Below are positions 36,903 through 54,469 of a stretch of DNA of 64,000 nt, in pieces. Source of the stretch: Trichormus variabilis 0441 (GTDB taxonomy: Bacteria > Cyanobacteriota > Cyanobacteriia > Cyanobacteriales > Nostocaceae); NCBI RefSeq assembly GCF_009856605.1, contig NZ_CP047242.1, positions 62,001 through 126,000 on the forward strand, in the 5' to 3' direction. The notes under the pieces are model-generated. The model made no database searches. It worked only from the letters and a program-made list of their open reading frames with translations, and was not told where the DNA came from. Each line of letters begins with the position of its first letter. Positions within the stretch are counted from its first letter, which is position 1. Position numbers and translations under genes: made by a program.

Positions 36903-37724
36903 ATGACCCAACTGAAAACACTTCCCATATACGACCCAACATTATTTGAGGGTGCTGCTGAAGTTTATGCTCAATACAGAACTAAGTACCCGCCTGCCGT
37001 ATTTGACAAGCTAACGGAAATATTTAATTTGAATGGTCAAGGAAGACTACTAGACTTGGGTACTGGCCCAGGTTTAATTGCCATTCCTCTCAGCACCAAA
37101 TTCCAAGAAGTAGTGGCGATCGATCCCGATCCGGAGATGCTCAAAGAGGCGCAACGCCAAGCAGCAACGGCAGGAGCAAATAATATTACTTGGCTAGAAC
37201 AAGGAGCAGAACTGATTAACCCTAGTCTTGGGGTATTTAAACTAGCTACCATTGGCAGAGCCTTTCATTGGATGGAACGCCAACTTGTACTAGAGCGCCT
37301 TTATGAATTGCTGGCAGATGATGGTGCGATCGCACTCCTGAATACAGGTGATGATCCTTGGAAAAGCCCTCTACCTTGGAAACAGGCTGCAATTGGAGTG
37401 GTGAAAAAATGGTTAGGTGAAGAGCGACGAACTGGACAACGAGGGCAAGGGATTCGTAAACCAGTTGATCCTCCCCACGAAGTCGTAATTGCCAATTCAA
37501 AATTTGCTCGCCAGGAAGTGCATGAAGTCACATTTGAGAAATCTTGGACAGTCTCTAGCTATCTTGGCTACTTATACACTACAGCTTTCTCGCTGAAAAT
37601 TTTCTATGGTGACAAAGCTGAAGAATTTGAAGCAGATATCAAAGACGCATTACTAGCGGTTGAGCCTTCTGGACACTTTACAGAAGAACTCAAAGCCACA
37701 ATTCAAGTTGTTTGGAAGCATTAA
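36903..37724 (+). CDS. Class I SAM-dependent methyltransferase
   Basis: A 273-residue cytosolic enzyme. SAM motif I is LLDLGTGPGLIAIPL (about 49-63), the acidic loop is VVAIDPDPEM, and the post-motif region IGRAFHWMERQLVLERLYELLADDGAIALL is typical of the UbiE/ArsM-like methyltransferase fold. The substrate is unknown. It precedes the flavin monooxygenase gene on the same strand (125-bp gap containing a GCAGAGG-type dispersed repeat), so a link to the sulfur cluster is possible but not shown. Confidence 0.82.
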   Translation: MTQLKTLPIYDPTLFEGAAEVYAQYRTKYPPAVFDKLTEIFNLNGQGRLLDLGTGPGLIAIPLSTKFQEVVAIDPDPEMLKEAQRQAATAGANNITWLEQGAELINPSLGVFKLATIGRAFHWMERQLVLERLYELLADDGAIALLNTGDDPWKSPLPWKQAAIGVVKKWLGEERRTGQRGQGIRKPVDPPHEVVIANSKFARQEVHEVTFEKSWTVSSYLGYLYTTAFSLKIFYGDKAEEFEADIKDALLAVEPSGHFTEELKATIQVVWKH

Positions 37725-37849
37725 CTTGATTTTTTAACGCAAAGTATCGCAGAGGTACTCGCAGAGGGGAAATGAGAGTTATTTACTCTTGATTTGTTTG
37801 GTACTTGAGAGTGAATTAATTTAACTATCTAAAATAAAGAGGAAAGCCG

Positions 37850-39214
37850 ATGAGCAAAAAACGCCAGTTTCGTTTAGGAGCATTTATTCAAGCTACTGGA
37901 CATCATATTTCGGCTTGGCGACATCCTGATGCACAAATAGATGCAGGGTCAAATTTTGACCATTACAAAGAAATTACCCAAACTGCTGAACGTGGGTTAT
38001 TTGATGCAGTTTTTTTGGCGGACAGCCCAGGAGTTTGGGGTGGTGAACCAGAGACACAAAAACGCAATGGGAAACTTGCTCATTTTGAGCCAGTCACCCT
38101 CTTTTCAGCGCTGTCCTCTGTCACCCAAAACATTGGTTTTATTTCCACTGCCTCGACTACTTATGAACATCCTTACACCCTGGCGCGTAAGTTTGCTTCG
38201 CTAGATCATTTGAGTAAAGGCCGGGCGGGGTGGAATGTAGTTACCACAGGTAACGAGAGTGCCGCAGGTAATTTCGGTCTTGAGCATCACCCAGAACATA
38301 GCCAACGTTATGAACGCGCAGAAGAGTTTGTACAAGTGGTTAAAGGGTTGTGGGATAGCTGGGAAGACGATGCTTTCATCCGTGATAGAGAATCTGGTAT
38401 TTATTTCGATACGGATAAACTACACGTACTAAACCACAAAGGTAAATATTTTTCCGTCAAAGGCCCGTTGAATGTTGCTCGTCCGCCTCAGGGTTATCCG
38501 GTGATTGTCCAGGCTGGGGCATCGGAAGCTGGAAGAGAATTAGCTGCGCGTACTGCTGAGGTGATTTTCACTGCTAATCAAACCCTAGCTGATGCCCAAG
38601 AATTTTACGCTGACGTAAAAGGCCGATTGGCAAAATATGGACGCTCTCCAGATGACCTAAAAATCATGCCTGGGGCCTTCCCAATTATTGGCCGGACTGA
38701 GGAAGAAGCTCAAGAGAAATACGAATTTTTGCAATCATTAATCCATCCCGATGTCGCTTGGGGCATTTTAAAGAGATACTACAAAGGTTTGGATCTGTCG
38801 AAATATTCTTTAGATGATATTGCTCCAGAACTACCTGGCGACACCAACAATAATAAGAGTCGTCTAAAATTAGTCAAAGATTTAGCGACTCGTGGGAGTC
38901 TGACGTTACGACAGTTATATCTGGCTCTTGCCACTGCCAGAGGTCATCGCACAATCCTTGGTACTCCCGAAAGTATTGCTGATCAGTTAGAGGAATGGTT
39001 TAACAATAGTGCAGCAGATGGTTTTAATATCATGCCACCAATCCTACCTACAGGCTTAGATGAGTTCGTGAACCTAGTCGTTCCCATTCTTCAGAAACGG
39101 GGATTGTTCCGTACTGAATATGAAGGTACTACCTTGCGGGAAAACCTGGGGCTACGTCGTCCTGAGAATCAATTTGCTGTCAAACAAGTGAATGAAAGAT
39201 TGGTTTTGGCGTAA
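37850..39214 (+). CDS. LLM-class FMN-dependent monooxygenase (NtaA/SnaA/DszA family)
   Basis: A 454-residue TIM-barrel enzyme. The stretches LGAFIQATGHHISAWRHP, GLFDAVFLADSPGVWGGE, FISTASTTYEHPYTLARKFASLDHLS, GRAGWNVVTTGNESAAGNFG and VIVQAGASEAGRELAARTAEVIF are diagnostic of the nitrilotriacetate/DszA group. These use FMNH2 from a separate reductase and O2 to hydroxylate substrates, often cleaving C-S or C-N bonds. The clustering with SsuA/SsuBC and hydrolases supports an organosulfur substrate (inference). The nitroreductase at 52521 might supply reduced flavin. ATG follows AGAGGAAAG. A MITE and a 460-bp gap separate it from the amidohydrolase. Confidence 0.88.
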   Translation: MSKKRQFRLGAFIQATGHHISAWRHPDAQIDAGSNFDHYKEITQTAERGLFDAVFLADSPGVWGGEPETQKRNGKLAHFEPVTLFSALSSVTQNIGFISTASTTYEHPYTLARKFASLDHLSKGRAGWNVVTTGNESAAGNFGLEHHPEHSQRYERAEEFVQVVKGLWDSWEDDAFIRDRESGIYFDTDKLHVLNHKGKYFSVKGPLNVARPPQGYPVIVQAGASEAGRELAARTAEVIFTANQTLADAQEFYADVKGRLAKYGRSPDDLKIMPGAFPIIGRTEEEAQEKYEFLQSLIHPDVAWGILKRYYKGLDLSKYSLDDIAPELPGDTNNNKSRLKLVKDLATRGSLTLRQLYLALATARGHRTILGTPESIADQLEEWFNNSAADGFNIMPPILPTGLDEFVNLVVPILQKRGLFRTEYEGTTLRENLGLRRPENQFAVKQVNERLVLA

Positions 39215-39244
39215 ATAAATAGGGCTTAGTAGTCTGACAAGTTA

Positions 39245-39453
39245 GAGGTTGTTTGAAAAGAGATTGGCTGTGATTTTAAGCACTTGTTGATCCCCCCCTA
39301 ACCCCCCTTAAAAAGGGGGGAAAATGAATTAAAGTCCACGCCACTTGCTACAAGTCGGCAGAGCCGCCCAACACAGTGGCTCCCCTTTTTAAGGGGGATT
39401 TAGGGGGATCTAAAATGTTTTGCTACTAAGCATAGGACTTTTCAAACATCCTC
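39245..39453. mobile_element. MITE-like element with TGTTTGAAAAG ends (copy A)
   Basis: The terminal inverted repeats GAGGTTGTTTGAAAAG / CTTTTCAAACATCCTC match at 15 of 16 positions. TTA flanks both sides (39242-39244, 39454-39456), compatible with a short TA-containing duplication. The interior is itself a large palindrome built of GATCCCCC..TAAAAAGGGG arms, a sequence widely repeated in Nostoc-type genomes. A second element with the same ends lies at 54674-54905. No coding capacity. Confidence 0.75.
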
Positions 39454-39674
39454 TTAACTTGAAGATCCAAAATCAGGACTACAGTCCTGACTACAAACAA
39501 AGGAGTAATGAGTTTCGAGTGCTGTAGACACTCCCTCGTTGAGCCAGTATGTTATGAGTTCTTTTTGTCATCAATATCACCCATGCTTTGTTGTACTCGG
39601 CACTCATAACTCATTTCTCAGCACTGTTTCTGTAATTTTTTATTTACGTAACTTGCTGTAGGCAAGGAAAAAAT

Positions 39675-41204
39675 ATGACTGAATATAGCAGACTAAAAAG
39701 TTCTCGTTCCGCCGCTATCAAAGCGAAACTCAATTATCCAATCATCGACACTGACGTTCATACTAACGATTTCACCCCAGCCCTTGAGGACTACATTGCT
39801 CAATATGGTGGCTCGAAACTGGTAGATGAACTGCGCAAGGCAGAATCTTCTCGTCTTAACTCCAAGAGCAACGGTAAAGACTGGTATCAACAAACTCCCG
39901 AAGAACGTCAATATAACCGGACAATTCGCTCTCCTTGGTGGGCGAGAGTTACCCGTAACACATTGGATTTAGCTACTTACACTCTTCCTGAGCTATTCTA
40001 TGAGCGTCAGGCAGAGCAAGGGTCAGATTATTCGGTGCTGTTTCCGAATAATGTTTTAGCACCGGCTGGAGCTAGCAAAGAGAACCGTCAAGCATTGCAA
40101 CGGGCTGTAAATCACTATCATGCTGATTTGTATCGCAAATATAGCGATCGCTTGACTGTAGTTGCTGGTATCCCAATGGGTACTCCTGAAGAAGCTGTTG
40201 AAGAATTAGAATTTGCAGTAAAAACACTAGGACTAAAAGTAGCAAATATTCCTGGTGGCGTGAAGCGTCCAATTAAAGCGATCGCTGATAAGTACCCAGC
40301 AGATCAATACCCAGAAGTTGCTAAGTATGCTTCATACATTGACTTCTACGGATTGGATAGTGAATATGATTACGATCCATTCTGGGCAAAGGCAGTTGAG
40401 TTGGGTGTACCTATTACTACCCATTATGGTAGCCAAGGTTGGACTGGACGCTCTTCCATCAGCAACTACATGAACAACCACATCGGTCACTTTGCCGATG
40501 GTTCACAAGCATTTGCGAAGGCGTTGTTCTTTGGTGGTGTTACCAAGCGTTTCCCACAGTTGCGCGTAGCGATGTTGGAAGGTGGTGCTGATTGGGGCGC
40601 ACACGTTTACATCCATTTGGTAGACAGATTCTCCAAACGGAGTCTCAAAGGTCTGCAAAACTACAACCCAGACCTGACCAATTTTGATGAATTGTACGCG
40701 TTGTTTGAGCGTTTTGGTAGTGAATTCTTGCAAGCACACCCCCTCAGCAAAGAAGAACTGAAAAAGACTGTACTAGGTTCTTCCTTCAACCGTCATAGTC
40801 GCTCGCCCATTGGTAGCGAACTAGAAGACTTTGCGGCGGCTGGGATTGAAACCATTGAAGATATCCGCGATCGCTGGGTAAATAGCTTCTTCTTTGGTTC
40901 TGAGTCTGACGATCGCACCATTGCAGCTGCATTCAACGACAAAGCCAATCCCCTGGGTGTGAAAATCAACGCCATCTATTCCTCAGATGTTGGTCACTGG
41001 GATGTACCCGACCTCACAGATCCTCTAGCAGAAAGTTGGGATTTGGTACAAGAAGGTGTGATTTCCGAAGCTGACTTTAAAGCTTATGTCTTCGCTAATC
41101 CCTACAAGTTCTACACCCAAGCTAACCCCGACTTCTTCAAGGGTACAGCAGTTGAATCTAAAGTACCTGCTCCACAAGTAGATAAGAGCCTTGTAGTAGC
41201 TTAA
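39675..41204 (+). CDS. Amidohydrolase-2 family metal-dependent hydrolase/decarboxylase
   Basis: A 509-residue protein of the PF04909-type TIM-barrel amidohydrolases (relatives of ACMSD and LigW). Visible are the N-terminal strand PIIDTDVHTND, HYHADLYRKYSDRLTVVAGIPM, LGVPITTHYGSQGW (barrel His), FPQLRVAMLEGGADWGAHV, and the late strand INAIYSSDVGHWDVPD with the conserved Asp. The usual N-terminal HxH is replaced by DVH, so the metal site may differ. Within the cluster it could act on the monooxygenase product, either hydrolysing or decarboxylating it. The next gene (alpha/beta hydrolase) follows after 81 bp. Confidence 0.82.
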   Translation: MTEYSRLKSSRSAAIKAKLNYPIIDTDVHTNDFTPALEDYIAQYGGSKLVDELRKAESSRLNSKSNGKDWYQQTPEERQYNRTIRSPWWARVTRNTLDLATYTLPELFYERQAEQGSDYSVLFPNNVLAPAGASKENRQALQRAVNHYHADLYRKYSDRLTVVAGIPMGTPEEAVEELEFAVKTLGLKVANIPGGVKRPIKAIADKYPADQYPEVAKYASYIDFYGLDSEYDYDPFWAKAVELGVPITTHYGSQGWTGRSSISNYMNNHIGHFADGSQAFAKALFFGGVTKRFPQLRVAMLEGGADWGAHVYIHLVDRFSKRSLKGLQNYNPDLTNFDELYALFERFGSEFLQAHPLSKEELKKTVLGSSFNRHSRSPIGSELEDFAAAGIETIEDIRDRWVNSFFFGSESDDRTIAAAFNDKANPLGVKINAIYSSDVGHWDVPDLTDPLAESWDLVQEGVISEADFKAYVFANPYKFYTQANPDFFKGTAVESKVPAPQVDKSLVVA

Positions 41205-41285: not shown

Positions 41286-41939
41286 ATGTCTATCGAACGC
41301 CGTTCTGGTTTATTGCCTTATCTATTCTCCCGCGCCGCAGAAGAGACCAACAAACCCGCACCCCTCGTATTGTTTCTACATGGGGCGCGCGATCGCGGTA
41401 CAGATATAAATGTATTACTAAAATGGGGTCTGCCTCGTTTTGTTGATGAATCCAGCCCCTTACCCTACTTTTTTGTCGCGCCCCAACTTCCTGAAGGCCA
41501 GACTTGGGTAGACCGAGAAGCAGATGTTATTGCTTTGTTGGATAATCTGATCGTTTCTCAATCAATAGATCCTTCCCGTGTCATCCTATCAGGATTCAGC
41601 TTAGGTACTGCGGGAGCATGGCATATTGCTGCTGCTCATCCTGGTCGTTTCGCTGGTTTAGTAGCGGTTTCCGGTCGTGTACCTAAAACCCTAGAAGCAA
41701 ACCAACTAGCTGCACTCAAAGAAATTCCCATCCAAATATTTCAAGGTGCAAAAGACGAAAAACTGTCAGTTGAAGATACACAGCAGATTGTTGATACCTT
41801 ACATGGTCTGGGGGGAACAGTAGATTTTACTGTCATACCTGAAGGGGATCATTTTATTGCTGATGAAGTGTACACCGACTCAAAATTGCAACAATGGCTG
41901 ATTTCACAGAGCCGTCGTCCTGCTTCTGTAGTCGCCTAA
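41286..41939 (+). CDS. Alpha/beta-hydrolase (phospholipase/carboxylesterase family)
   Basis: A 217-residue protein of the PldB/carboxylesterase type. Seen are the oxyanion strand LVLFLHGARDRG, the nucleophile elbow GFSLGTAG (Ser), the acid in FQGAKDEKLS and the catalytic His in VIPEGDHFIA, a complete catalytic triad. No signal peptide, so it is cytosolic. It lies between the amidohydrolase and aldo/keto reductase genes (22-bp gap to the latter) and is probably in the same operon. It may hydrolyse an ester or thioester formed in the pathway; the substrate is unknown. Confidence 0.87.
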   Translation: MSIERRSGLLPYLFSRAAEETNKPAPLVLFLHGARDRGTDINVLLKWGLPRFVDESSPLPYFFVAPQLPEGQTWVDREADVIALLDNLIVSQSIDPSRVILSGFSLGTAGAWHIAAAHPGRFAGLVAVSGRVPKTLEANQLAALKEIPIQIFQGAKDEKLSVEDTQQIVDTLHGLGGTVDFTVIPEGDHFIADEVYTDSKLQQWLISQSRRPASVVA

Positions 41940-41960: not shown

Positions 41961-42959
41961 ATGACATTACCCACAACTAAACTTGGCCAAACTGGATTGA
42001 CCGTTTCTCGTCTGTGTCTCGGTACAATGACCTTCGGATTACAGACAGATGAAGAAACTTCCAGGCAGATTCTCGACACCGCCGCCGATGCAGGCATTAA
42101 CTTTCTGGATACAGCCGATGTTTATCCTTTGGGTGGTGGACTAGCTACGGCTGGAAGTACGGAAGAAATCATTGGACGTTGGCTAAAAGGCAAACGAGAC
42201 AATTTTATCCTTGCTACAAAATGTGTGGGACGAGTCGGGACTGCGCCTTGGGATCAAGGTGCTTCACGTAAACATATTCTCGATGCCATCGATGCTTCCT
42301 TAAGAAGATTGGGAACTGATTATGTTGACTTGTACCAATTGCACTCTGATGATGCTTCAACTCCTCTCGATGAAACCCTAGAAGCATTAGATACAGTAGT
42401 ACGTGCTGGTAAAGTACGCTACATCGGAGTTTCCAACTTCTTAGCTTACCGACTCGCCCGCGCCTTGGGACGCGCCGATGTACGAAATCTGACTCGCTTT
42501 GTCTCAATTCAACCCCGCTACAATTTGTTATTCCGCGAGATTGAGAGAGAACTTTTGCCCCTAGCAAAAGAAGAAAGTCTGGGTGTAATTCCTTACAACC
42601 CCTTGGCTGGTGGTTTACTAACTGGTAAACACAGCCTGACTCAAGGCCCAACAGCAGGGACTCGTTTTACTTTGGGTACAGCCGCAGAACGTTATCAAGA
42701 AAGGTATTGGCGCGATCGCGAGTTTAATACTGTGGAAGAATTACGCACAGTAGCAGACTTCGCAGGCCTATCACTCACCACCCTAGCTGTGGCGTGGGTG
42801 TTGGCTAATCCGATTATTACTGCCCCCATTATTGGTGCTAGTCGTCCAGAACAGCTTGCTGACACCCTAAAAGCCCTGGAACTTAAGCTCGATGACAATT
42901 TGAAGCAAAAATTAGATGACATCACCGCCGAATATCGCAGAGGTGATTCTCTACGCTAG
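41961..42959 (+). CDS. Aldo/keto reductase
   Basis: A 332-residue NADPH-dependent reductase. Start motif TKLGQTGLTVSRLCLGTMTFG. The catalytic tetrad is visible as Asp and Tyr in FLDTADVYPLGG, Lys in FILATKCVG and His in LYQLHSDD. The cofactor region is IIGASRPEQLADTL. It would reduce or oxidise an aldehyde or ketone, such as the carbonyl left after C-S bond cleavage by a flavin monooxygenase. It sits in the putative operon LLM oxygenase - amidohydrolase - hydrolase - AKR - SsuA; the gaps here are 21 and 53 bp. Confidence 0.9.
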   Translation: MTLPTTKLGQTGLTVSRLCLGTMTFGLQTDEETSRQILDTAADAGINFLDTADVYPLGGGLATAGSTEEIIGRWLKGKRDNFILATKCVGRVGTAPWDQGASRKHILDAIDASLRRLGTDYVDLYQLHSDDASTPLDETLEALDTVVRAGKVRYIGVSNFLAYRLARALGRADVRNLTRFVSIQPRYNLLFREIERELLPLAKEESLGVIPYNPLAGGLLTGKHSLTQGPTAGTRFTLGTAAERYQERYWRDREFNTVEELRTVADFAGLSLTTLAVAWVLANPIITAPIIGASRPEQLADTLKALELKLDDNLKQKLDDITAEYRRGDSLR

Positions 42960-43012: not shown

Positions 43013-44053
43013 ATGATTAAACGCCGTCGTTTTCTAAATGTCGCTACATCTAGTCTGGGCGGTTTTTCTATGGCCTATTTGTTGGGAAGTTGTAGCCAAC
43101 AAAGCCAAAAGAATGTAGCAAATAGTAGCAGTTCTCTGGCGATAAAAACGAAGGTTCTCCGCATGGGGTATCAAAGTGCAGGGGATCTTGTCCGTAATCG
43201 GCAAGTTTTAGAAAAACGCTTAGATCCTCTGGGAATTAAAGTAGAATGGCTGCAATTTGCCCAAGGGCCGCAGCTGATGGAAGGGATGGCTGCCCGTAGG
43301 GTTGATATAGGCTCAGTGGGAGAAACCCCACCAATTTTTGCCCAAGTGGCTGGATCAGACATTGTTTATGTCGTGGGTACACAAAGAAACGCAGGAACCG
43401 GCAGAAGTAGCGTGATTGCAGTGCCGCCAGAGTCTCCACTCACCAAGTTTGAGGAGATTAAGGGGCAAGAAGTTTATTTTCAAAAAGGCTCGGCATCACA
43501 TTATTTTATGCTCAGGGCTTTACAGTCGATTGGTTTGACCATCAAAGATATCAAAATCAAAAGTATGGCAACTATCGAGGCGCGGGCTGCTTTTCTGGAG
43601 GGAAAAATCCCTGTTTGGATGACAGGAGATCCCCACTATGCGATCGCTGAAAAAATGAATCGCATTCGTGTTCTCAGAGATTCTGTTGGCTTGGATTCTC
43701 CTGGCGGCTACTACATTGCTGATAGAAAATTTGCTCAAGAAAATCCTGGTGTTCTGAAAATTCTGATTGAGGAACTTCATGCGCTTGATAAATGGGCAGA
43801 AGTGAATCGAGATGAAGTCAAAAAATTGATGATTACCCAACAAAAGCTGGATGAAGATGTAGCCGAAAGGGTAATGTCTCGTCGCACTTTTGCCGGACGC
43901 AGAGGTTTAAGTCCGGCACTAATAGCGGAACAACAGCGTGTAGCAGATTTATTCTTTAAAGAAGGTGTAATCCCCAAGAAAATCAACATCAGTGATGCCT
44001 TACTCCCATCTGATTTGTATGCTGCAATCACACCGCCAGAAATTATGGTTTAA
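43013..44053 (+). CDS. ssuA: SsuA-like sulfonate-binding lipoprotein with Tat signal
   Basis: A 346-residue periplasmic binding protein. The N-terminus MIKRRRFLNVATSSLGGF is a twin-arginine signal, followed by the lipobox YLLGSC, so it is probably a Tat-exported lipoprotein. The SsuA pattern is clear: LRMGYQSAGDLVRNRQVLEKRL, EWLQFAQGPQLMEGMAARRVDIGSVGETPPIFAQ and GQEVYFQKGSASHYFMLRAL. It should deliver an aliphatic or related sulfonate to SsuBC (32-34 kb). It has a full-length paralogue at 53366. A 210-bp MITE has inserted inside its stop codon, changing TAG to TAA while keeping the protein unchanged. Confidence 0.9.
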   Translation: MIKRRRFLNVATSSLGGFSMAYLLGSCSQQSQKNVANSSSSLAIKTKVLRMGYQSAGDLVRNRQVLEKRLDPLGIKVEWLQFAQGPQLMEGMAARRVDIGSVGETPPIFAQVAGSDIVYVVGTQRNAGTGRSSVIAVPPESPLTKFEEIKGQEVYFQKGSASHYFMLRALQSIGLTIKDIKIKSMATIEARAAFLEGKIPVWMTGDPHYAIAEKMNRIRVLRDSVGLDSPGGYYIADRKFAQENPGVLKILIEELHALDKWAEVNRDEVKKLMITQQKLDEDVAERVMSRRTFAGRRGLSPALIAEQQRVADLFFKEGVIPKKINISDALLPSDLYAAITPPEIMV

Positions 44054-44642: not shown

Positions 44643-46544
44643 ATGATCAAAAAGACGAGACTTTCTAAATCTTTTCAACGTGCTGCTAATGCGCCAAAAT
44701 TACCCAATACCACCTTCAGGTTCATTTGCTATTTTGTGAACCAGTTTCGTTGGTGGTATGTGGCAATGGTAATTGCGGAAGTGATTCATGCAACTTGTGG
44801 CATTATGTTGCCCTATGCTATTGGCGAGATTATTCGCAGCGTAACGCGATCGCCAGGGGACAGCAAGTCCATTTTTGATGCGGTGAGCCAACCCCTGATG
44901 CTGTTCTCCGCTTTGAGTGTAGGTGAAGTTGTCTTTGGACGCACAGCCGGACTCTTGCAAACCATTCTTCATCCCATCCACCGACAGCACATCGTCCGTT
45001 CTCTATATGCCTACTTGCAGCATCATTCCCATCGCTACCTGAGTAGCAGTTTTGCCGGGTCATTAGCACATCGCATTGGCGAAACTTCTTTGGGTGTGAC
45101 TCAGACAATGCAAATGCTGATTACTGAATTTATGTCAGTAATTATTGTCTATATTGTCTCCACAATTTTACTGTATCGCGCCTATCCTCCCCTGGCTGCA
45201 TTCGTGGGTACGTGGGCTGTTTTGTTCATCAGTATTTCCTTTTGGTTGGCAACTCGCTGCCGAATTTATTCCCGCAAAGCCGCAGCCGCCAGAAGTGAGA
45301 CAACTGGCATCATTGTAGATGCGGTCACAAATCTCAGCAGTAGCCGACTGTTTGCACGCTTGGGTTTTGAACGCAGCTATTTAAATGAGCAATTAAGGCG
45401 CGAACTCAAACAGGTGAGAAAGTCTAACTGGTATTCAGAGCGAATTCGCTGGTTTCAATTTATCTCATCTGCCATTTTGAAAATTGGCACTTTATATTAT
45501 TCGCTCTCACTGTGGAGCCGTGGACAAATTGCTACTGCTGACTTTGTAGTTGCTACCAGTTTGTCACTGTTAATCATTAGTGAAGCCAGAAATTTAAGTA
45601 AACGCTTTCTAGAATTTTTTGAACATATCGGTAATATAGCTAATGGAGTCTACACCATTGTTCAACCCCATGAACTGGTTGACCGAGATCAGGCGATCGC
45701 CCACTCTATCACCCAAGGTAAAATTGAGTTTCGGCAAGTCAACTTTAGCTATACAGATGGGAAGAAAGTATTTGAAAATCTTTCTATCACCATCCAACCA
45801 AGCCAGCGAGTGGGACTGGTTGGCTTTTCCGGCTCTGGAAAATCTACCTTTGTTAATCTCATCTTGCGTCTATTCGATCCCCAATCGGGGCAGATTCTCA
45901 TTGATGGAGTCGATATTCGAGACATGACCCAGGATGCTCTCCACTCGCAGATCAGCTTGATTCCTCAAGACCCGTCCCTATTCCATCGCACATTAATGGA
46001 AAATATTCGTTATGGGCGACTGGATGCAACCGATGAGGAAGTGAGCGAGGCGGCGCGTCAAGCTCATGCTCATGATTTCATCGTACCAATGCAGGAGGGA
46101 TATGATTCTCTAGTGGGGGAACGCGGCGTTAAATTATCGGGTGGGCAGAGACAACGGATTGCGATCGCGCGAGTAATTCTCAAAAATGCACCAATACTGA
46201 TTTTAGATGAAGCTACCTCTAGCCTTGATTCCATCACTGAAAAAGCGATTCAAGATACCCTCGATTTAGCCATGAATGAGAAAACGGTGATTGTGGTGGC
46301 TCATCGTCTGTCTACTATTGCCCATTTAGACCGTATTTTAGTATTTGATCAAGGTCGCATTGTCGAAGATGGTACTCACACAAAATTATTGGCGCGTCGT
46401 GGCGCTTACTATAAATTATGGAAAATGCAGGCGGGTGGATTCTTACCTATAGAAGCGGAACAAGGAGAGGACAAGAAATTGATCAAACAACTTGATTCCA
46501 ACCAAGCCAGTACTTCTGATCTGAACGTCACTAAGAATAGGTAA
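44643..46544 (+). CDS. ABC exporter, fused permease-ATPase (ABCB type)
   Basis: A 633-residue half-transporter that should work as a homodimer in the inner membrane. About six membrane helices occupy residues 30-320 (WWYVAMVIAEVIHATCGIMLPYAIGEII; IIVYIVSTILLYRAYPPLAAF). The ATPase (about 370-610) has Walker A GFSGSGKST, Q-loop SLIPQDPSLF, signature [16 protein letters not shown], Walker B ILILDEATSSLDS and VVAHRLSTI. The substrate is unknown; lipid, peptide or drug export are all possible. A palindrome like those before the DrrAB and binding-protein/GGDEF genes lies in its upstream region. Confidence 0.9.
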   Translation: MIKKTRLSKSFQRAANAPKLPNTTFRFICYFVNQFRWWYVAMVIAEVIHATCGIMLPYAIGEIIRSVTRSPGDSKSIFDAVSQPLMLFSALSVGEVVFGRTAGLLQTILHPIHRQHIVRSLYAYLQHHSHRYLSSSFAGSLAHRIGETSLGVTQTMQMLITEFMSVIIVYIVSTILLYRAYPPLAAFVGTWAVLFISISFWLATRCRIYSRKAAAARSETTGIIVDAVTNLSSSRLFARLGFERSYLNEQLRRELKQVRKSNWYSERIRWFQFISSAILKIGTLYYSLSLWSRGQIATADFVVATSLSLLIISEARNLSKRFLEFFEHIGNIANGVYTIVQPHELVDRDQAIAHSITQGKIEFRQVNFSYTDGKKVFENLSITIQPSQRVGLVGFSGSGKSTFVNLILRLFDPQSGQILIDGVDIRDMTQDALHSQISLIPQDPSLFHRTLMENIRYGRLDATDEEVSEAARQAHAHDFIVPMQEGYDSLVGERGVKLSGGQRQRIAIARVILKNAPILILDEATSSLDSITEKAIQDTLDLAMNEKTVIVVAHRLSTIAHLDRILVFDQGRIVEDGTHTKLLARRGAYYKLWKMQAGGFLPIEAEQGEDKKLIKQLDSNQASTSDLNVTKNR

Positions 46545-46854: not shown

Positions 46855-47835
46855 ATGTTCAAACTACTGAGATATATAAAAATTTTTCTCATTACCGGGT
46901 GTTTGCTATTTGCTTGTCATGCTTCAACACCGACTGAATTCAAACGCCCTTCCTTGAAAGTACTATTTGGATCTTTTGTTGGGGAGTATCCAGGTATTAT
47001 TGCTCAAGAAAAAGGATTCTTCAAAGCCCAAGGGGTAGACGTAGAACTAATTCATAAACGATATATCCAATTGGAACAAGCCAATTTCAGTGCAGGTAAG
47101 TATGATGGGATGACATCTTCTTTAGGAAATCTTATTATCTTGAGTGCAATAAATCTAGATATACAAGGTGTGATTGTTATAGATGAATCGACAGGTGCAG
47201 ATGTAGTAGTCGCCCAACCACAAATTAAAACCGTTGCTGACTTGAAAGGGAAAAAGCTGGGTGCAAATCTAGGCGGTTTTAGTGAATTGTTCATCACCGA
47301 GATGTTGAAAACTAACAACTTAAACAGTAATGATGTGAATTTGGTTAGATTAGAGGCATTAAAAATTCCTCAAAACTTGAAAAAAAATTTTATTCAAGCC
47401 GGACACACTTGGGAACCCTATCTTTCCGAAGCTATGAAAATAGGAGGAAATATCTTATTTACTAGCAAACAAACCCCTGGCTTGATTTTAGATTTGATGA
47501 TCTTTCGCGGTGATGTAATCCGCGATCGCCCTGGAGACATTCGTGCATTTGTGCAGGGATGGTTGCAAGCTTCGGAATATTGGAAAGAAAATGTTCAAGA
47601 AGGAAACACTATCATCAGCAAAGCTTTAAAAATTCCTAGCAATACAATTTCTCTAGAGGGAATAAGTCTGACTAGTTTAGATGAAAATCAAAATTTATTT
47701 CAATTTAGTAACCCTAACTCCATCGACAAAATAGCCAAAGTATATGCAGATTTTTTTATTCGTGCTGGAAATTTGACGCGAATTCCTGAGCTAAAAAGTT
47801 TATTTAATTCTTCCTTCTTGAACCCTGCTTCCTAG
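46855..47835 (+). CDS. NMT1/SsuA-like periplasmic binding lipoprotein linked to a GGDEF protein
   Basis: A 326-residue protein. The N-terminal hydrophobic segment FLITGCLLFAC gives a lipobox with Cys21, so it is a lipoprotein. The binding-protein fold is seen in LKVLFGSFVGEYPGIIAQEKGFFKAQGVDVELI, GKYDGMTSSLGNLI, and VADLKGKKLGANLGGFSELFITEMLK, typical of NMT1/THI5/SsuA substrate-binding proteins. No permease gene accompanies it. Only 9 bp downstream begins a Cache-type diguanylate cyclase, so the pair likely forms a sensor in which the loaded binding protein touches the sensor's periplasmic domain (inference). The ligand is unknown. Confidence 0.85.
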   Translation: MFKLLRYIKIFLITGCLLFACHASTPTEFKRPSLKVLFGSFVGEYPGIIAQEKGFFKAQGVDVELIHKRYIQLEQANFSAGKYDGMTSSLGNLIILSAINLDIQGVIVIDESTGADVVVAQPQIKTVADLKGKKLGANLGGFSELFITEMLKTNNLNSNDVNLVRLEALKIPQNLKKNFIQAGHTWEPYLSEAMKIGGNILFTSKQTPGLILDLMIFRGDVIRDRPGDIRAFVQGWLQASEYWKENVQEGNTIISKALKIPSNTISLEGISLTSLDENQNLFQFSNPNSIDKIAKVYADFFIRAGNLTRIPELKSLFNSSFLNPAS

Positions 47836-47844
47836 TTTAAAGCC

Positions 47845-49620
47845 ATGCAGCATGATCTTTTGGGTAGCATCCGGACAAAATTGATCGCCTCGTTTCTCGT
47901 TGTTGCTTTGATTCCGTTACTGTTATTGGCATCTATTAACAAACAGACAACGGAAACAGCATTAACTGACAACGCTCGGCAAGCTTTATCTGCTGCGGCT
48001 AACCAAACCAGTAACAGAATAGATGCTTTTATTGATAGAAATCTTAATGCTGTGCGCGTAGAGGCGCTTTTACCAGGCTTGGCAGGCTACCTCAGCCTAA
48101 CTCCAAAAGCGCGAGATGATAGCCCCGAAATGCAATTGGCAACGGAAACATTAAATCGGCTCAGTCGCAAAGATATGGTTCATATTATCTCCTATGGGTT
48201 GCTCGACTTAAAAGGGAAGAATGTATTGGATACATATACATATACATCAGACATTAGCGAAGATGAATCAGATCAAGATTATTTTCAAAAACCACTGCAA
48301 ACTGGATTATCCTTTGCTTCTAGTATGAAGCGATCGCCGATAATTCCTGAGCTTATTACTATCTTTTTTAGCAGTCCCGTTCGTAATGCCCAAGGAGATA
48401 TATTAGGTGTCTTGCGTGTTTCATACAATGCTACTGTGATTCAGCAGTTAGTAAATAGAGAAACTGAACTGGCTGGAGCTAAATCCTTTGCTATTCTTTT
48501 AGATGAAAATCATATTTATCTGGCACATAGTCATGCACCGCAACTACTTTTTAAATCAATTGTGCCTCTACCTTTCGATATTATAACTCAACTACAAAGG
48601 GAAGGGCGCTTGTCTAATGACCCTATCAGAGAATTAGCAACTAATGAGTTGAAACTTAAACAAGCATTGAATAATAAAAAGTTACATTTAACTACTACTT
48701 TGTCAACAACAGGTAATCAGGTTAATTTGATAGCGATCGCCAGTTTAAAATATAAACCTTGGTCTGTTTTGTTCGCACAGCCTCTAGTTGTTGCCCTTGC
48801 ACCTGTAGAAAAGCAAATTCATGACGCAATGTTTCTATTTGTATTGATCGCTTCAGTCGTGACAATTATCGCTTTTGCTATTGGGCAACTGCTAACAAGA
48901 CCAATAATTTACCTGACCAATATAGTTTTTCAGTTTACAACAGGTAACTTAAATATCCGCGCCAAAATTAGCTCAACAGATGAAATAGGTCAACTGGCGA
49001 AATCGTTTAATAATATGGCATTTCAGTTACAAACGTCTTTTGAAACCTTAGAACAACGGGTACAAGAAAGAACAGCAGAGTTAGTAATTGCCAATCAGAA
49101 ACTAGAACAACTGGTAAATCTAGATGGTTTGACTCAGGTGGCTAACCGTCGTTGCTTCGATGAACGACTAAAAGCAGAATGGAAACGCCTGGCGCGAGAA
49201 CAACAACCCCTGTCACTGATTTTATTCGATGTTGATAAATTCAAATCTTACAACGACTACTATGGCCATCTTGGAGGCGATGATTGTCTAATCACCATAG
49301 CGCAAGCTGTGCAACAGAAGCTTCATCGTCCTGCTGACTTACTAGCGCGTTACGGAGGAGAAGAATTCTCGATACTCCTCCCCAATACTGACTTACTAGG
49401 AGCGATCAAAGTAGCACAAATTATTCAACAAGCAATTTACGATCAAGCCATTCCCCATGCACAGTCTGATATAAAGGATATCGTTACACTTAGTTTGGGT
49501 ATTACTTCTATTATACCTGCTGGAGATATTAATCCTGATACACTCATCGCTTCAGCCGATAAAGCACTGTACAATGCCAAACAACAGGGGCGCGATCGCT
49601 ATTGTACTCATGAGACATAG
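47845..49620 (+). CDS. Membrane diguanylate cyclase (Cache-HAMP-GGDEF)
   Basis: A 591-residue protein. The first membrane helix (LIASFLVVALIPLLLLASI, about 13-32) is followed by a periplasmic dCache-like domain (about 35-310), a second helix (AMFLFVLIASVVTIIAFAIG, about 333-352), HAMP, and a coiled coil (ETLEQRVQERTAELVIANQKLEQL). The GGDEF domain (about 430-588) has FDVDKFKSYND and the active-site loop GGEEF. The product-inhibition I-site RPAD is present, exactly five residues before GGEEF. It should make c-di-GMP in response to a periplasmic signal, probably through the binding protein encoded 9 bp upstream. In cyanobacteria c-di-GMP controls motility and aggregation. Confidence 0.92.
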   Translation: MQHDLLGSIRTKLIASFLVVALIPLLLLASINKQTTETALTDNARQALSAAANQTSNRIDAFIDRNLNAVRVEALLPGLAGYLSLTPKARDDSPEMQLATETLNRLSRKDMVHIISYGLLDLKGKNVLDTYTYTSDISEDESDQDYFQKPLQTGLSFASSMKRSPIIPELITIFFSSPVRNAQGDILGVLRVSYNATVIQQLVNRETELAGAKSFAILLDENHIYLAHSHAPQLLFKSIVPLPFDIITQLQREGRLSNDPIRELATNELKLKQALNNKKLHLTTTLSTTGNQVNLIAIASLKYKPWSVLFAQPLVVALAPVEKQIHDAMFLFVLIASVVTIIAFAIGQLLTRPIIYLTNIVFQFTTGNLNIRAKISSTDEIGQLAKSFNNMAFQLQTSFETLEQRVQERTAELVIANQKLEQLVNLDGLTQVANRRCFDERLKAEWKRLAREQQPLSLILFDVDKFKSYNDYYGHLGGDDCLITIAQAVQQKLHRPADLLARYGGEEFSILLPNTDLLGAIKVAQIIQQAIYDQAIPHAQSDIKDIVTLSLGITSIIPAGDINPDTLIASADKALYNAKQQGRDRYCTHET

Positions 49621-49729: not shown

Positions 49730-50584
49730 TTACATTGCCACCCGTGGATAAAGTCGTCCACAAATGAGGGTTAAGCCTATTAGTGTTAACAAGAGAATTG
49801 CACAGTCCCAACCAAAGCCATAGATACTCGTTCCATTCGCTAACATCGTGCCACGTAGTCCATCCACTTGGTAAGTTAAGGGATTAACGCGAGACAAAAA
49901 CTTTAACCAGTCAGGCATCATGGAAATGGGATAAATGGCATTACTCGCAAAAAATAAAGGCATAGTTAACAACTGTCCAATTCCTGTCATCCGTTCTCTC
50001 GTTTTTACCAAACAGCCGATGATTAAGGAAAAAGTACAGAAACAACCTGCTCCCAACATGACAACGAATAGCACTTGGATAAAAGCTAAGGGATGCAGAT
50101 TGAGATTAACACCTAATATCAATGCTAATACGTAAATTACCAATACTTGTGATAAACATCGGACTCCACAAGCTAAAGACTTACCTAACACCATTGCCAC
50201 TCTAGGTGTCGGGCTAGCTAAGAATTTATGCACAACTCCTAAATCTCGCTCCCAGATCAGCGTCATTCCACCTGTAAAAATGGCGACAAATAACACACTC
50301 TGCGCCAGAATCCCCGCCGTCATAAAGTCTAGGTAAGGTAATTCGCCTGTAGGAATTGCCCGAATGCGGGAGAATACTTGCCCAAAGATGAGCAGCCACA
50401 GTGATGGTTGCACGGCTCGGACTATTAAATCCGTAGGGTCGTGTCGGAGTTTCCGCACTTCCATCTCGGCAATCACAAAGGTTTTTGTAAATATCTGAAT
50501 AATTGTAGAAATCACATTGGCGCGATGGGTAGCTTTTGGCTTAACCCAACCGTTGAGATGTACGTCTGGTTCTGGCTGTATCAC
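49730..50584 (-). CDS. ABC-2 type exporter permease (DrrB-like)
   Basis: A 284-residue inner-membrane protein with about six hydrophobic segments after a cytosolic N-terminus (EMEVRKLRHDPTDLIVRAVQPSLWLLIFGQVF). The family signature lies near the C-terminus (MPLFFASNAIYPISMMPDWL, RVNPLTYQVDGLRG). It pairs with the ATPase encoded upstream to export a hydrophobic compound or a cell-envelope precursor. The GTG start (AGGAG 9 bases before) overlaps the ATPase gene by 44 bp, which suggests translational coupling. Confidence 0.88.
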   Translation of the reverse strand: MIQPEPDVHLNGWVKPKATHRANVISTIIQIFTKTFVIAEMEVRKLRHDPTDLIVRAVQPSLWLLIFGQVFSRIRAIPTGELPYLDFMTAGILAQSVLFVAIFTGGMTLIWERDLGVVHKFLASPTPRVAMVLGKSLACGVRCLSQVLVIYVLALILGVNLNLHPLAFIQVLFVVMLGAGCFCTFSLIIGCLVKTRERMTGIGQLLTMPLFFASNAIYPISMMPDWLKFLSRVNPLTYQVDGLRGTMLANGTSIYGFGWDCAILLLTLIGLTLICGRLYPRVAM

Positions 50585-51395
50585 GATAGTTCACTCCTGA
50601 TGTTAGTTGATCCCCTGTGTAATGAATAAAGACATCATCTAAGGTTGCATTGGGCTTACCTAAAGAAGCTTTTAAATCACTGGGTTCCCCTGTGATCACA
50701 ACTTGACCTTGCTGCATAATCGTCACTCGGCTACACAGACTATCAGCTTCTTCTAAAAAGTGGGTGGTTAAAAATATGGTTGTGCCGTAATCTGCTCGCA
50801 GTTGTTGCACAAGTTGCCATACCTGAGTGCGGGCTATGGGATCTAGTCCTACAGTCGGTTCATCAAGAAACAAAATCTTGGGTTGGTGCATGATAGATTG
50901 GGCAATTTCTAGCTTGCGAATCATGCCACCGGAGTAGTTACGTACTAAACGATGGGCTGCGGCTTGCAAACCCATGAAATCCAGCACTTCCCGAATACGC
51001 CTTTGCCTGTGCTTGACAGGAATATCGTATAGCTTGGCAAAAATTAAGAGGTTTTCGTAACCTGTGAGACTACCATCAGCAGAAAGGGCTTGAGGTACAT
51101 AGCCAAATAGCCGTCTAACAGCCGCCGCCTGGTGAGTTACGTCATAACCAGCTATAGTTGCTCTCCCTGCACTTAGGGGCAATAGAGTAGTCAACATCTT
51201 CATTGCTGTACTTTTACCTGCGCCGTTAGGGCCAAGTAAGCCAAAGACCTCACCTTGTTGGACTGTGATACTTAAATCTTTGACAGCAACCGCTTTACCA
51301 AAGTAACGCGTCAGTCCTTGGGTTTCTAAAATCACTGCGTTAGGGCTACTGGCAAGTGATTTTGACAAATCAGTGTTTCCCGTAAGTCTTGTCAC
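50541..51395 (-). CDS. ABC exporter ATPase (DrrA-like)
   Basis: A 284-residue ATPase. Walker A GPNGAGKSTAMKML, the signature NYSGGMIRKLEIAQSIM, Walker B ILFLDEPTVGLDP and the switch region IFLTTHFLEEADSLCSR match daunorubicin-resistance type DrrA. The C-terminal VEXP-like regulatory tail typical of DrrA is present only in part (the last 44 bp overlap the permease gene). A perfect 13-bp palindrome, TTAGTTAAACTAA, lies 24 bp before the start codon, positioned to block or direct transcription of both genes. Confidence 0.9.
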   Translation of the reverse strand: MTRLTGNTDLSKSLASSPNAVILETQGLTRYFGKAVAVKDLSITVQQGEVFGLLGPNGAGKSTAMKMLTTLLPLSAGRATIAGYDVTHQAAAVRRLFGYVPQALSADGSLTGYENLLIFAKLYDIPVKHRQRRIREVLDFMGLQAAAHRLVRNYSGGMIRKLEIAQSIMHQPKILFLDEPTVGLDPIARTQVWQLVQQLRADYGTTIFLTTHFLEEADSLCSRVTIMQQGQVVITGEPSDLKASLGKPNATLDDVFIHYTGDQLTSGVNYRDTARTRRTSQRLG

Positions 51396-51418: not shown

Positions 51419-51431
51419 TTAGTTAAACTAA
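51419..51431. promoter_or_regulatory. Putative operator TTAGTTAAACTAA
   Basis: A perfect 13-bp dyad (6-bp arms around A) just upstream of the drrA-like gene. It shares GTTAAACTAACT with the exporter site at 44468-44494 and nearly the whole palindrome with 46779-46790. Confidence 0.6.
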
Positions 51432-51494
51432 CTATTAGCTTCGCATATTTTACGGGAAAGTCAAGAGTATATTTTGTGGTGGGGGAATTTTGCT

Positions 51495-51656: not shown

Positions 51657-51685
51657 TTTGACGAGATTTTAAGCTAAATACTCAA

Positions 51686-52441
51686 ATGACAAGTACAGGA
51701 ATTCGCACAACTCAAGTTAAAGTCCCAAACGGTGATTTGCAAATAGATGCTTATCTCGCTGAACCGACAAAAGAGGGAACTTTCCCTGCCGTGATTGTGA
51801 TTCAGGAAATATTTGGGGTAAATATTCATATTCGGGAAGTTGCTGAGAAGTTTGCCCACGAGGGGTATGTAGCTGTTGCTCCTGCACTTTATCAACGAAC
51901 TGCTCCCGGTTTCGAGGCTAAATATACCCAGGAAGATATCCAACGTGGTAGAGGCTATAAAGATCAGACTAAAGCAGAGGAAATATTGAGTGATATTCAA
52001 AGTGCGATCGCCTATTTGAGAACTTTACCAAATGTCCAAAAAGGGGCGATCGGTTCAATTGGCTTCTGTTTTGGTGGTCATGTTGTTTACTTAGCTGCCA
52101 CATTACCAGACATTAAAGTGACAGCATCCTTCTACGGTGGAGGGATTATCAACTCTACACCTGGTGGTGGTGAACCTACTATTACCCATACCTCAAAGAT
52201 TAAAGCCCCCATTTATGCCTTCTTCGGCACTGAAGATCAAGGCATCCCGCTAGAACACACAGAACAAATTGAAGCCGAATTAAAGAAACATCAAATTCCT
52301 CATAAAATCTTTCGCTATGAAGGCGCAGGGCATGGCTTTTTCTGCAACCATCGCGCCAGCTATAATCCCGAAGCTGCCGCCGACGCTTGGCAACAAGTCT
52401 TAGAATTATTCCAAAAAAACCTCCAACTGCAAACAGTTTAA
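51686..52441 (+). CDS. Dienelactone hydrolase family protein
   Basis: A 251-residue cytosolic alpha/beta hydrolase. The features are AVIVIQEIFGVNIHIREVAEKFA, the cysteine nucleophile in SIGFCFGGHVVY, the acid in FFGTEDQGIP and the catalytic His in YEGAGHGFFC, i.e. the Cys-Asp-His triad of dienelactone hydrolases. Members open lactones or hydrolyse esters in aromatic degradation, but many are of unknown role. It faces a convergent nitroreductase, with a strong palindromic terminator between them. Confidence 0.9.
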   Translation: MTSTGIRTTQVKVPNGDLQIDAYLAEPTKEGTFPAVIVIQEIFGVNIHIREVAEKFAHEGYVAVAPALYQRTAPGFEAKYTQEDIQRGRGYKDQTKAEEILSDIQSAIAYLRTLPNVQKGAIGSIGFCFGGHVVYLAATLPDIKVTASFYGGGIINSTPGGGEPTITHTSKIKAPIYAFFGTEDQGIPLEHTEQIEAELKKHQIPHKIFRYEGAGHGFFCNHRASYNPEAAADAWQQVLELFQKNLQLQTV

Positions 52442-52487
52442 ATCTCAAATAGTCTCGGCTTTATCGGGACTGCTTCTTTGTCTTGGT

Positions 52488-52517
52488 AGTAGAAACGCGA
52501 TTAATCGCGTTTCTACT
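52488..52517. terminator. 30-bp perfect palindrome, bidirectional terminator
   Basis: AGTAGAAACGCGATT followed by its exact complement, then a T-run (CTTTTTT) on the plus strand. It lies in the 79-bp gap between the convergent hydrolase and nitroreductase stops. Confidence 0.85.
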
Positions 52518-52520
52518 TTT

Positions 52521-53342
52521 TTAGCGCAACTTAAAACCTAAATTTTTCAAAGCTTCCTGCAAGCGATCGCGTCCTGATAAAGATTCAGCAAACGCTACTC
52601 GTTTAGCTGAGTGTTCCGACCAATCACCAGCAACATTCATCTGTTGGGAATTGTAGAATGCTTTCATGATTTGGTTGTAAAGAGCAATTTCCTGGTCTTG
52701 TTTCTCCAATTGATAAGTCTCCCGATGCAATACTGCTGCTTGAGGTAAACGCGGTTTAACTTCCACATTTACAGATGAATCTGCGTAACCGACGCACAAC
52801 CCAAAAACTGCAAAGACATGAGGCGGTAAATTTAAAACCTCTGCCACTTCTTCTGGACGGTTACGCAATGCACCTATATAAACTGTTCCCAAACCCAGAG
52901 ATTCGGCAGCAACAACGGCATTTTGTGCCGCCAATGTCGCATCTATAGCCGCCATCAGAAACATTTCTAGATAATCTAAAGCATCATGGGATAATCCTTG
53001 ACTCTCAGCAACGTATGTTAGTCTTGCCAAATCTGCTAACCACACCAGAAATAAAGGACACTGGCGAATATGCGCTTGGTTATTCGCTAACTGCGATAAC
53101 TTCTCCTTACGTTGTGCATCTTGGACAGCAACTACACTCCATGTCTGGAGATTTGAGGAAGTCGATGCAGATTGGGCTGCTGCTACCAAAGTTTCTAGAG
53201 TGTTTGATGGTAGGGAATCACTAAGGTAAGAACGAATCGAACGGTGAGACAGTAAAGTTGATAATGTCTCGTTCCAAGAAATATCTGCATTGAATGCGTC
53301 TACGCCGTAACGACGATGTAATAACTCAGTAGGATTGGTCAT
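52521..53342 (-). CDS. Nitroreductase family flavin oxidoreductase (NfsA/FRP type)
   Basis: A 273-residue FMN enzyme. The first motif HRSIRSYLSDSLP (FMN phosphate binding), QSASTSSNLQTWSVVAV, AAIDATLAAQNAVVAAESLGLGTVYIGALRN and VFAVFGLCVGY are typical of NfsA/Frp NADPH oxidoreductases. It lies 23 bp after the downstream end of the SsuA gene on the same strand, and the two are probably co-transcribed (ssuA first). In this context it may act as the flavin reductase feeding FMNH2 to the LLM monooxygenase at 37850, the role SsuE plays for SsuD (inference). Confidence 0.87.
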   Translation of the reverse strand: MTNPTELLHRRYGVDAFNADISWNETLSTLLSHRSIRSYLSDSLPSNTLETLVAAAQSASTSSNLQTWSVVAVQDAQRKEKLSQLANNQAHIRQCPLFLVWLADLARLTYVAESQGLSHDALDYLEMFLMAAIDATLAAQNAVVAAESLGLGTVYIGALRNRPEEVAEVLNLPPHVFAVFGLCVGYADSSVNVEVKPRLPQAAVLHRETYQLEKQDQEIALYNQIMKAFYNSQQMNVAGDWSEHSAKRVAFAESLSGRDRLQEALKNLGFKLR

Positions 53343-53365
53343 AAGAACGAAATGTGAATTACAGA

Positions 53366-54469
53366 TTATGGATTCTTGGGTGCAAAAGCTGCATATTGCG
53401 CTGGTGTAAGCATTGCTTCTTTGACATCAATTGCTTTGGGAATTAATTTTAGTTCATAGAATTTATCTGCAACTTCCTGCTGGAGAGTAATTAATTCTGG
53501 AGTGATTGGTCTGATGCCAAATTTTCTTCTGTTAGTACTTCTTTGCATCGTTTCCAAATCGATGCCCAAGATAGGAGAAAGAGTTGCTGCTACTTCATTG
53601 CGATTTTTATCAGACCATTGTTCAGTATTTTGAATTTCTTCTAGTATTGCTTTAATAATTTCTGGTTGCTGGTTAGCAAATTTGCGGCTAGCAAGGTAAT
53701 ATCCTCCCTGCTTATTAATTCCTGTGCCATCAATTAACACACGAGCATCGGCAGATTTTTCGGCTGCTGCATAAAAGGGGTCCCAAATTGACCAAGCATC
53801 AATGCTACCTTTGACAAAGGCGGCACGAGCATCGGCTGGGGGTAGATATATGGGTTGAATATCGCTGTACTTCAGTCCGTTTTTTTCTAAAATTTGCACT
53901 AGCAGATAATGGGCGCTAGAACCTTTTTGGAAAGCGATTTTTTTCCCTTTAAGATCATTGACTGTTTTGATATCGGAATTTTTGGGAACAAGAATTGCTG
54001 AATTAGCTGGACTGGGTATAATTCCCGCAATATATGTGATTGCAGCATCGGCTGCTTGAGCAAAAATTGGTGGTGATTCTCCAGTATGCCCGAAGTCAAT
54101 ACTACCGACATTCATCGCTTCTAAAAGCTGCGGACCGGCAGGAAATTCATTCCATTCAACAGATACTCCTTCAGGTTGCAAGCGCTTTTCTAAAAGCCCT
54201 TTACTTTTTAAGAGAATTGCTGATTTTTGATAGCCTATTCTGACTACAGATGCTTTACTCTGAGTTGAATTATTAGCAGACACAGTAGTGATATTACTAG
54301 CATTATTAGCTGTGCAGGCAGCAAATAAAAGACTGAGGCATAAGCCAGTAATAAATGTCCCAGTAAATTTTATAGGAACGATAGATATTGAGCGACTCTG
54401 ATTAGCAAATTTGAAAATAAACAATTTTTGCCAATAGGTTATTATGCGCTGGAATAGAAAATTCAACAT
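53366..54469 (-). CDS. ssuA: SsuA-like sulfonate-binding lipoprotein (second copy)
   Basis: A 367-residue binding protein. A long N-terminal extension leads to the lipobox LLFAAC. The core repeats the SsuA pattern of the copy at 43013: VRIGYQKSAILLKSKGLLEKRL, EWNEFPAGPQLLEAMNVGSIDFGHTGESPPIFAQ and GKKIAFQKGSSAHYLLVQIL. It should present a sulfonate to SsuBC or another permease. It has an ordinary lipoprotein signal instead of the twin-arginine one of the other copy, so the two differ in export route. The nitroreductase gene follows on the same strand. Confidence 0.9.
   Translation of the reverse strand: MLNFLFQRIITYWQKLFIFKFANQSRSISIVPIKFTGTFITGLCLSLLFAACTANNASNITTVSANNSTQSKASVVRIGYQKSAILLKSKGLLEKRLQPEGVSVEWNEFPAGPQLLEAMNVGSIDFGHTGESPPIFAQAADAAITYIAGIIPSPANSAILVPKNSDIKTVNDLKGKKIAFQKGSSAHYLLVQILEKNGLKYSDIQPIYLPPADARAAFVKGSIDAWSIWDPFYAAAEKSADARVLIDGTGINKQGGYYLASRKFANQQPEIIKAILEEIQNTEQWSDKNRNEVAATLSPILGIDLETMQRSTNRRKFGIRPITPELITLQQEVADKFYELKLIPKAIDVKEAMLTPAQYAAFAPKNP

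Follow-up and report, generated by a model that had tools for sequence, protein, structure and literature searches.

Which chemistry is served by a run of genes in Trichormus variabilis 0441 that places an LLM monooxygenase and a PF04909 'amidohydrolase' (hereafter AH) on one strand with a sulfonate-binding protein, and is AH a hydrolase at all? The stretch analysed, hereafter the window, covers 64,000 nt of the forward strand (GCF_009856605.1, NZ_CP047242.1 positions 62,001-126,000; G000:C1:62001-126000 in our numbering, G000 being this genome of 7.1 Mb in 5 contigs), and cluster coordinates are window positions unless prefixed G000:C1. On the plus strand the run reads methyltransferase (MT), LLM, AH, alpha/beta hydrolase, aldo/keto reductase (AKR), SsuA1 and ABC exporter (Table 1), with gaps of 81, 21 and 53 bases from AH through SsuA1 and wider ones between LLM and AH (460 bases) and between SsuA1 and the exporter (589 bases). 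An earlier, sequence-only reading had proposed an organosulfur catabolic cluster here. Profile matches confirm its gene calls and families (LLM, AH, alpha/beta hydrolase, AKR and SsuA on one strand), the ssuBC genes and porin to the left, and the second SsuA, the nitroreductase and a dienelactone hydrolase family protein (DLH) to the right. The run members that it named were right, but it left out the MT at the start, the ABC exporter and a third SsuA-like protein. In our judgement, the chances that the whole scheme developed below is correct, namely organosulfur scavenging by a cluster that employs two different oxygenases, are evenly balanced.

The assignment to organosulfur scavenging is supported from two sides: by co-occurrence with ssu genes, and by distant genera in which AH keeps company with SsuBC, FMN reductase, TauD, SsuA and a TSUP permease. 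In 242 genomes drawn evenly across the class (AH called at E <= 1e-60, SsuC at E <= 1e-70), AH is present in 18, and SsuC was found in 18/18 of these as against 27/224 AH-negative genomes (Fisher p 2.6e-15, a value inflated by kinship); in 40 of the 45 SsuC-positive genomes, a match exceeds the NF008470 cut-off. Within the window's own family, SsuC occurs in 6/6 AH genomes and 0/7 others (p 5.8e-4). The sequence-only reading would have been abandoned had AH homologues occurred apart from ssu genes, and these counts show them occurring together. The distance from AH to SsuC is at most 12.5 kb in 9 of the 18 genomes and at most 26.2 kb in 12; one genome has them 52 kb apart, and in 5 they are on different contigs. 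Co-occurrence with SsuD is looser, both across the class (14/18 AH genomes versus 30/224 others) and within the family (4/6 versus 1/7, p 0.10); four AH genomes (G116, G144, G179 and G212) hold SsuC and no SsuD at the limit used. The absence of SsuD claimed earlier is true of the window and not of the genome, where SsuD is found at G000:C1:1231522-1232559 (626.6 bits, cut-off 518.2), in a second island with homologues of glutathione S-transferase (GST), AKR and SsuA. The cluster LLM itself scores 64.9 bits against the SsuD family TIGR03565, below the cut-off of 518.2.

Transport genes of the window point the same way. SsuA1 carries, by eye, an RRRFL twin-arginine-like signal and a lipobox, and its best PDB match is 2x26, a periplasmic aliphatic sulphonates-binding protein. 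The SsuC of the window is the sole strong match in the genome, the next best reaching 100.1 bits. The whole genome encodes six SsuA proteins over the TIGR01728 cut-off for this one strong SsuC; several binding proteins may thus share one permease, which suggests a multi-receptor design.

Among distant genera, an island in G179 and G185 (L123-L126), two genomes that we take to be Pseudanabaena, holds homologues of nitroreductase, FMN reductase, SsuBC, TSUP permease, AKR, GST, LLM and AH, as well as of a second AKR, the exporter, SsuA, TauD, SsuA and DLH, with other genes interspersed; each label is the best match in a small library. Much the same set is present on the annotated Pseudanabaena plasmid ABRG53c. 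The proteobacterial context rests on one Variovorax record, of which 25 kb were read: there AH (70% identical) has phnDCE, another ABC uptake set and a gene of the TauD family as neighbours, and no LLM was found within these 25 kb. In proteobacteria the scavenged compound may perhaps be an organophosphonate.

The run is a conserved cluster, and the ABC exporter belongs to it. This was established on the best 80 of 234 AH relatives, obtained from a scan of 84,980 species genomes, with genes detected by tblastn over at least 40% of the query. All 80 loci carry cyanobacterial record titles, mostly of Nostoc and its kin, so that they are not independent, and since 23 of them are shorter than 17 kb the counts are lower bounds; the window's AH shares up to 97% identity with its counterpart in a named Nostoc species. 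The neighbourhood comparison proposed by the sequence-only reading bears it out, as 73/80 loci have an LLM (at least 60% identity) upstream of AH and on its strand, at a gap of 40-3227 bases (median 243). Such pairing exceeds chance, because the window's genome of 7.1 Mb holds, besides the cluster LLM, just three close paralogues (55-70%). SsuA/TauA-type binding proteins were detected in 45 loci and TauD in 19. Between AH and AKR, the variable genes include an FMO-like flavoprotein, TauD, a GDSL hydrolase and a methyltransferase, and GNAT and HAD genes separate AKR from the exporter in some loci. The upstream stretches of LLM were collected from 73 loci and the first 30 compared by eye, a non-statistical inspection in which no common promoter motif stood out. 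As for the three paralogues (G000:C1:360826, 2846334 and 1432454, at 70, 67 and 55%), one lies beside a TauD-like gene and another close to genes resembling FMO (85%) and SsuD.

The class sample tells a similar story. LLM copies of at least 85% identity occur in 12 genomes, all AH-positive, and lie within 6.5 kb of AH (starts compared); at 64% or more, this proximity holds in 14 of the 18 AH genomes. In G185 a copy of 86% found 2.3 kb from AH during locus reading is absent from the genome search list, the nearest listed LLM of G197 is 14.7 kb from AH, G145 and G207 have none on the contig of their main AH, and one LLM copy of G084 contains an internal stop. The exporter (E <= 1e-200, five candidates scored per genome) was found in 12/242 genomes, all AH-positive and all within 5.1 kb of AH; at that limit, it was not detected in 6 of the 18 AH genomes.

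PF04909, the family of AH, spans hydrolases, decarboxylases and amidohydrolase-related dinuclear oxygenases (PMC10811679). The metal ligands of AibH2 are Asp25, His27, His211, Glu265, Asp337 and His340, an acidic residue at position 342 reportedly being conserved in binuclear members only (PMC7782822), and those of LynB7 are D11, H13, H197, E252, D320, H323 and D325 (PMC10127204). Alignment places the putative ligands of AH at D27, H29, H250, E302, D438, H441 and D443, i.e., three His and three carboxylates in the AibH2/LynB7 order plus an extra Asp; local spacing is the same, with ~65 extra residues ahead of D438. The set, including the Asp two residues past the last His (D443), is identical in 29/29 aligned sequences and in 123/123 of a larger collection. 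That collection comprises the window AH, 3 paralogues and 119 homologues, the latter being the 120 listed out of 3903 found, less the partial P0111. As a control, 30 PF04909 loci were examined (from 32 places in 30 related genomes): 22 hold all seven residues, 1 lacks the last only and 7 have a different set. The 22 comprise 10 AH or orthologues, 1 paralogue (51%) and 11 proteins of <=26% identity, so that the motif defines a subclass and is not specific to AH. The AlphaFold2 model of AH matches PtmU3 structurally, with a fold like that of PtmU3, AibH2 and SfbO.

AH is thus a candidate O2-activating dinuclear oxygenase; ligands placed by alignment and the predicted fold favour this, not decisively, over the hydrolysis step that the sequence-only reading had assigned to it and that they leave unsupported. 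By alignment and prediction, it resembles AibH2, PtmU3, SfbO and LynB7 in fold, six ligands and extra Asp; it differs in its length (~509 residues, of which ~65 extra lie between the Glu and the last Asp) and in residing in an ssu-linked cluster with no Rieske partner nearby. Three loci (L023, L024 and L026) encode a second AH paralogue, ~50% identical with the same ligand set, upstream of MT-LLM-AH, and two AH-type proteins per run recall the AibH1H2 pair. In a FastTree phylogeny of the 123 sequences, with the paralogues as root, all 37 AH from cyanobacteria group in a single clade with a support of 0.70. Proteobacterial and other sequences beside this clade are still 68-77% identical, which makes transfer between phyla, in one direction or the other, likely.

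The second oxygenase of the run, LLM, has its closest solved relatives in YtnJ/MoxC (PDB 1yw1/6ask, 418.9 bits), the enzyme also known as CmoJ. CmoJ cuts the C-S bond of a sulfoxide to give a sulfenic acid and an aldehyde (PMC10863075). CmoO/CmoJ salvage of S-alkylcysteines thus shares with the cluster a monooxygenase of the same family, whereas sulfonate-type uptake, AH and the exporter set the cluster apart; family scans recognised no gene for cysteine N-acetylation or deacetylation in the window's run. The SsuEADCB alkanesulfonate system likewise groups an LLM monooxygenase with SsuA, SsuB and SsuC, but here LLM is of the NtaA/DmoA type, SsuD is located elsewhere, and AH, AKR, the alpha/beta hydrolase and the exporter are additional. 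A third parallel is sulfoquinovose degradation, in which SmoC is LLM-like, from a different LLM family than the cluster LLM, and SmoB is an AKR; an LLM that would form an aldehyde beside an AKR evokes SmoC/SmoB. The SmoA/B/C set, too, combines a monooxygenase, a flavin reductase and a further enzyme (PMC12890257). Unlike it, the cluster possesses AH, and no glycosidase was seen among the scanned genes. SmoB was not recognised among 45 PDB matches of AKR, a comparison that was not a dedicated test.

In the scheme that we infer, in its chemical steps and their order as in its electron donor, substrate and exporter cargo, SsuA1 (and SsuA3) would pass a sulfonate-like anion on to SsuBC, the permease that they share. 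AH, as a dinuclear Fe/Fe or Mn/Fe oxygenase, would hydroxylate a C-H bond, plausibly beside sulfur or nitrogen. LLM, drawing reduced flavin mononucleotide (FMNH2) from a reductase, for instance the nitroreductase close by, would then cleave the C-S bond to yield sulfite (or a thiol) and a carbonyl, which AKR would reduce, and the alpha/beta hydrolase would open an ester or similar bond. Finally, the ABC exporter would expel the carbon remnant, for which a photoautotroph has no use. The nitroreductase-family protein, present in the window and in several islands elsewhere, is a possible flavin reductase. The ssu operon, with its patchy distribution in Nostocaceae (PMC4907049), and the dinuclear oxygenase class are already published. 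Searches for cyanobacterial or sulfonate clusters of this kind, confined to papers in PMC, gave no description of an LLM-AH-AKR-exporter cluster. As its 'hydrolase' looks like a recently recognised two-metal oxygen-using enzyme, the route may be undescribed. That a Mn/Fe or Fe/Fe amidohydrolase-fold oxygenase and LLM work one after the other on a single imported organosulfur compound, the carbon remnant being exported, would be a new oxidative desulfurisation route and the first physiological role of such an oxygenase in scavenging sulfur (in Variovorax-like bacteria perhaps phosphonate), without a Rieske partner; we advance it tentatively, expecting it somewhat more to fail than to hold.

Several observations weigh against the two-oxygenase scheme. 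The ssuBC genes are scarce at the 80 loci (SsuB 13, SsuC 12); LLM is absent from 7 of them, 4 of which have 8 kb of sequence upstream (L030, L064, L080 and L083); and, despite 8 kb downstream, no AKR was detected in 8 loci and no exporter in 7. The LLM family includes C-N-cleaving enzymes. AH and PtmU3 share just 16% identity across 331 aligned residues, and further down the structural ranking, after PtmU3 and 4dzi, oxygenases and mononuclear decarboxylases tie. The AH family sequence profile ranks decarboxylases first, and the best single-sequence match is AibH1H2 chain A (27.2 bits), which we take to be the mononuclear AibH1 subunit. No Rieske ferredoxin lies near the cluster, the nearest Rieske-domain gene being ~495 kb off. 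For AibH2-like genes, an adjacent Rieske ferredoxin is reported in 90% (PMC10401708), and we treat a small Rieske protein as a frequent, not a defining, associate of dinuclear oxygenases. Together with the many hydrolases and decarboxylases of PF04909, the profile ranking, the tied structures and the missing Rieske partner would suit a mononuclear metal hydrolase or decarboxylase acting after desulfurisation by LLM, the cluster being otherwise as the sequence-only reading had it. Given the ligand set and the PtmU3-like model, we regard this as rather unlikely.

The two-oxygenase scheme must also be set against other purposes for the run. The proximity of LLM to YtnJ/MoxC, and the recurrence of GST, MarR, MFS, DrrAB and nitroreductase homologues in related islands, could reflect a CmoJ-like removal of toxic electrophile adducts, S-alkylated thiols among them, in which the nitroreductase, GST, MarR/MFS and exporter would form a stress module rather than serve sulfur nutrition. 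SsuC in all 18 AH genomes and a sulfonate-binding protein within the run argue instead for uptake from outside, and make a stress module unlikely. The tight linkage of the exporter to AH (12/12 exporter-bearing genomes), and the methyltransferases, GDSL, GNAT and FMO-like genes that vary within the run, would be expected of a small biosynthetic or signalling-metabolite cluster whose product is secreted, the ssu association then stemming from gene islands and not from function; with SsuA inside the run, Variovorax AH beside uptake transporters and no assembly-line gene among 30 window proteins scanned with Pfam, we consider it very unlikely. That LLM is a nitrilotriacetate/ethylenediaminetetraacetate (EDTA)-type monooxygenase and the cluster serves nitrogen through C-N rather than C-S chemistry would fit the EDTA monooxygenase and the protein named nitrilotriacetate monooxygenase among its relatives, but is scarcely credible beside the ssu-gene linkage, the closeness of SsuA1 to a solved sulfonate-binding SsuA and the neighbouring cystathionine beta-synthase.

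If organosulfur scavenging by two oxygenases is correct, a protein that bears the label 'amidohydrolase family' in cyanobacteria and proteobacteria activates O2, and cyanobacteria have a way of using organosulfur in addition to SsuD and TauD. Moreover, the native substrate of the sulfate-binding SfbO could, according to its authors, not be inferred (PMC10811679); the neighbourhood provided by the cluster limits the candidates to compounds transported by SsuA.

Table 1. Features of the run and its surroundings (window positions; bit scores with the profile's cut-off where given).
Feature	Position	Strand	Profile match and remarks
SsuB-like ABC ATPase	32139..32906	-	NF008420 353.5 bits, below cut-off of 395
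SsuC-like permease	33010..33837	-	NF008470 342.9 bits, just below cut-off of 347
OprB/SLH outer-membrane porin	34385..36208	-	PF04966 and PF00395
S-adenosylmethionine-dependent MT, first gene of run	36903..37724	+	PF13649; occasional cluster member, 16/80 loci
FMNH2-dependent LLM monooxygenase, NtaA/DmoA family	37850..39214	+	TIGR03860 623.2 bits, cut-off 279.7
AH, candidate amidohydrolase-related dinuclear oxygenase	39675..41204	+	PF04909 50.1 bits, cut-off 26.4
Alpha/beta hydrolase, carboxylesterase-like	41286..41939	+	PF02230; 56/80 loci
AKR	41961..42959	+	PF00248; 66/80 loci
SsuA1, sulfonate-binding lipoprotein	43013..44053	+	TIGR01728 172.3 bits, cut-off 163.5
ABC exporter, membrane and ATPase domains fused	44643..46544	+	PF00664 and PF00005; 64/80 loci
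Third SsuA-like binding protein	46855..47835	+	TIGR01728 105.9 bits, under cut-off of 163.5
DLH	51686..52441	+	PF01738; homologues in some related islands
Nitroreductase-family flavoprotein	52521..53342	-	PF00881; NF008033 211.7 bits, cut-off 223
SsuA3, sulfonate-binding lipoprotein	53366..54472	-	TIGR01728 266.9 bits, stronger match than SsuA1
Cys/Met-metabolism pyridoxal phosphate enzyme	54997-56133	-	PF01053
Cystathionine beta-synthase	56123-57508	-	TIGR01137 568.1 bits

Further genes surround the run. The pyridoxal phosphate enzyme and cystathionine beta-synthase belong to sulfur amino-acid metabolism and are tied to the cluster by position only. Next to the latter, a class I aminotransferase (57560-58174, minus strand) is reduced to its C-terminal part (profile positions 171-355) and is probably a decayed gene, because no in-frame N-terminal half exists upstream. 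The third SsuA-like lipoprotein is followed 9 bases later by a dCache-HAMP-GGDEF protein (the pair spanning 46855-49620, plus strand), possibly as a binding protein feeding a diguanylate-cyclase sensor. A DrrAB-like ABC export pair occupies 49730-51395 on the minus strand, and its homologues lie near MarR and MFS homologues by the cluster in other genera. At 60789-63803 (minus strand), a large protein has an RTX-repeat match; three open frames of 114 aa recur on the opposite strand at an exact spacing of 345 bases, which suggests a tandem repeat of that length. Finally, an IS66-type transposase gene is located at 12989-14461 on the plus strand.

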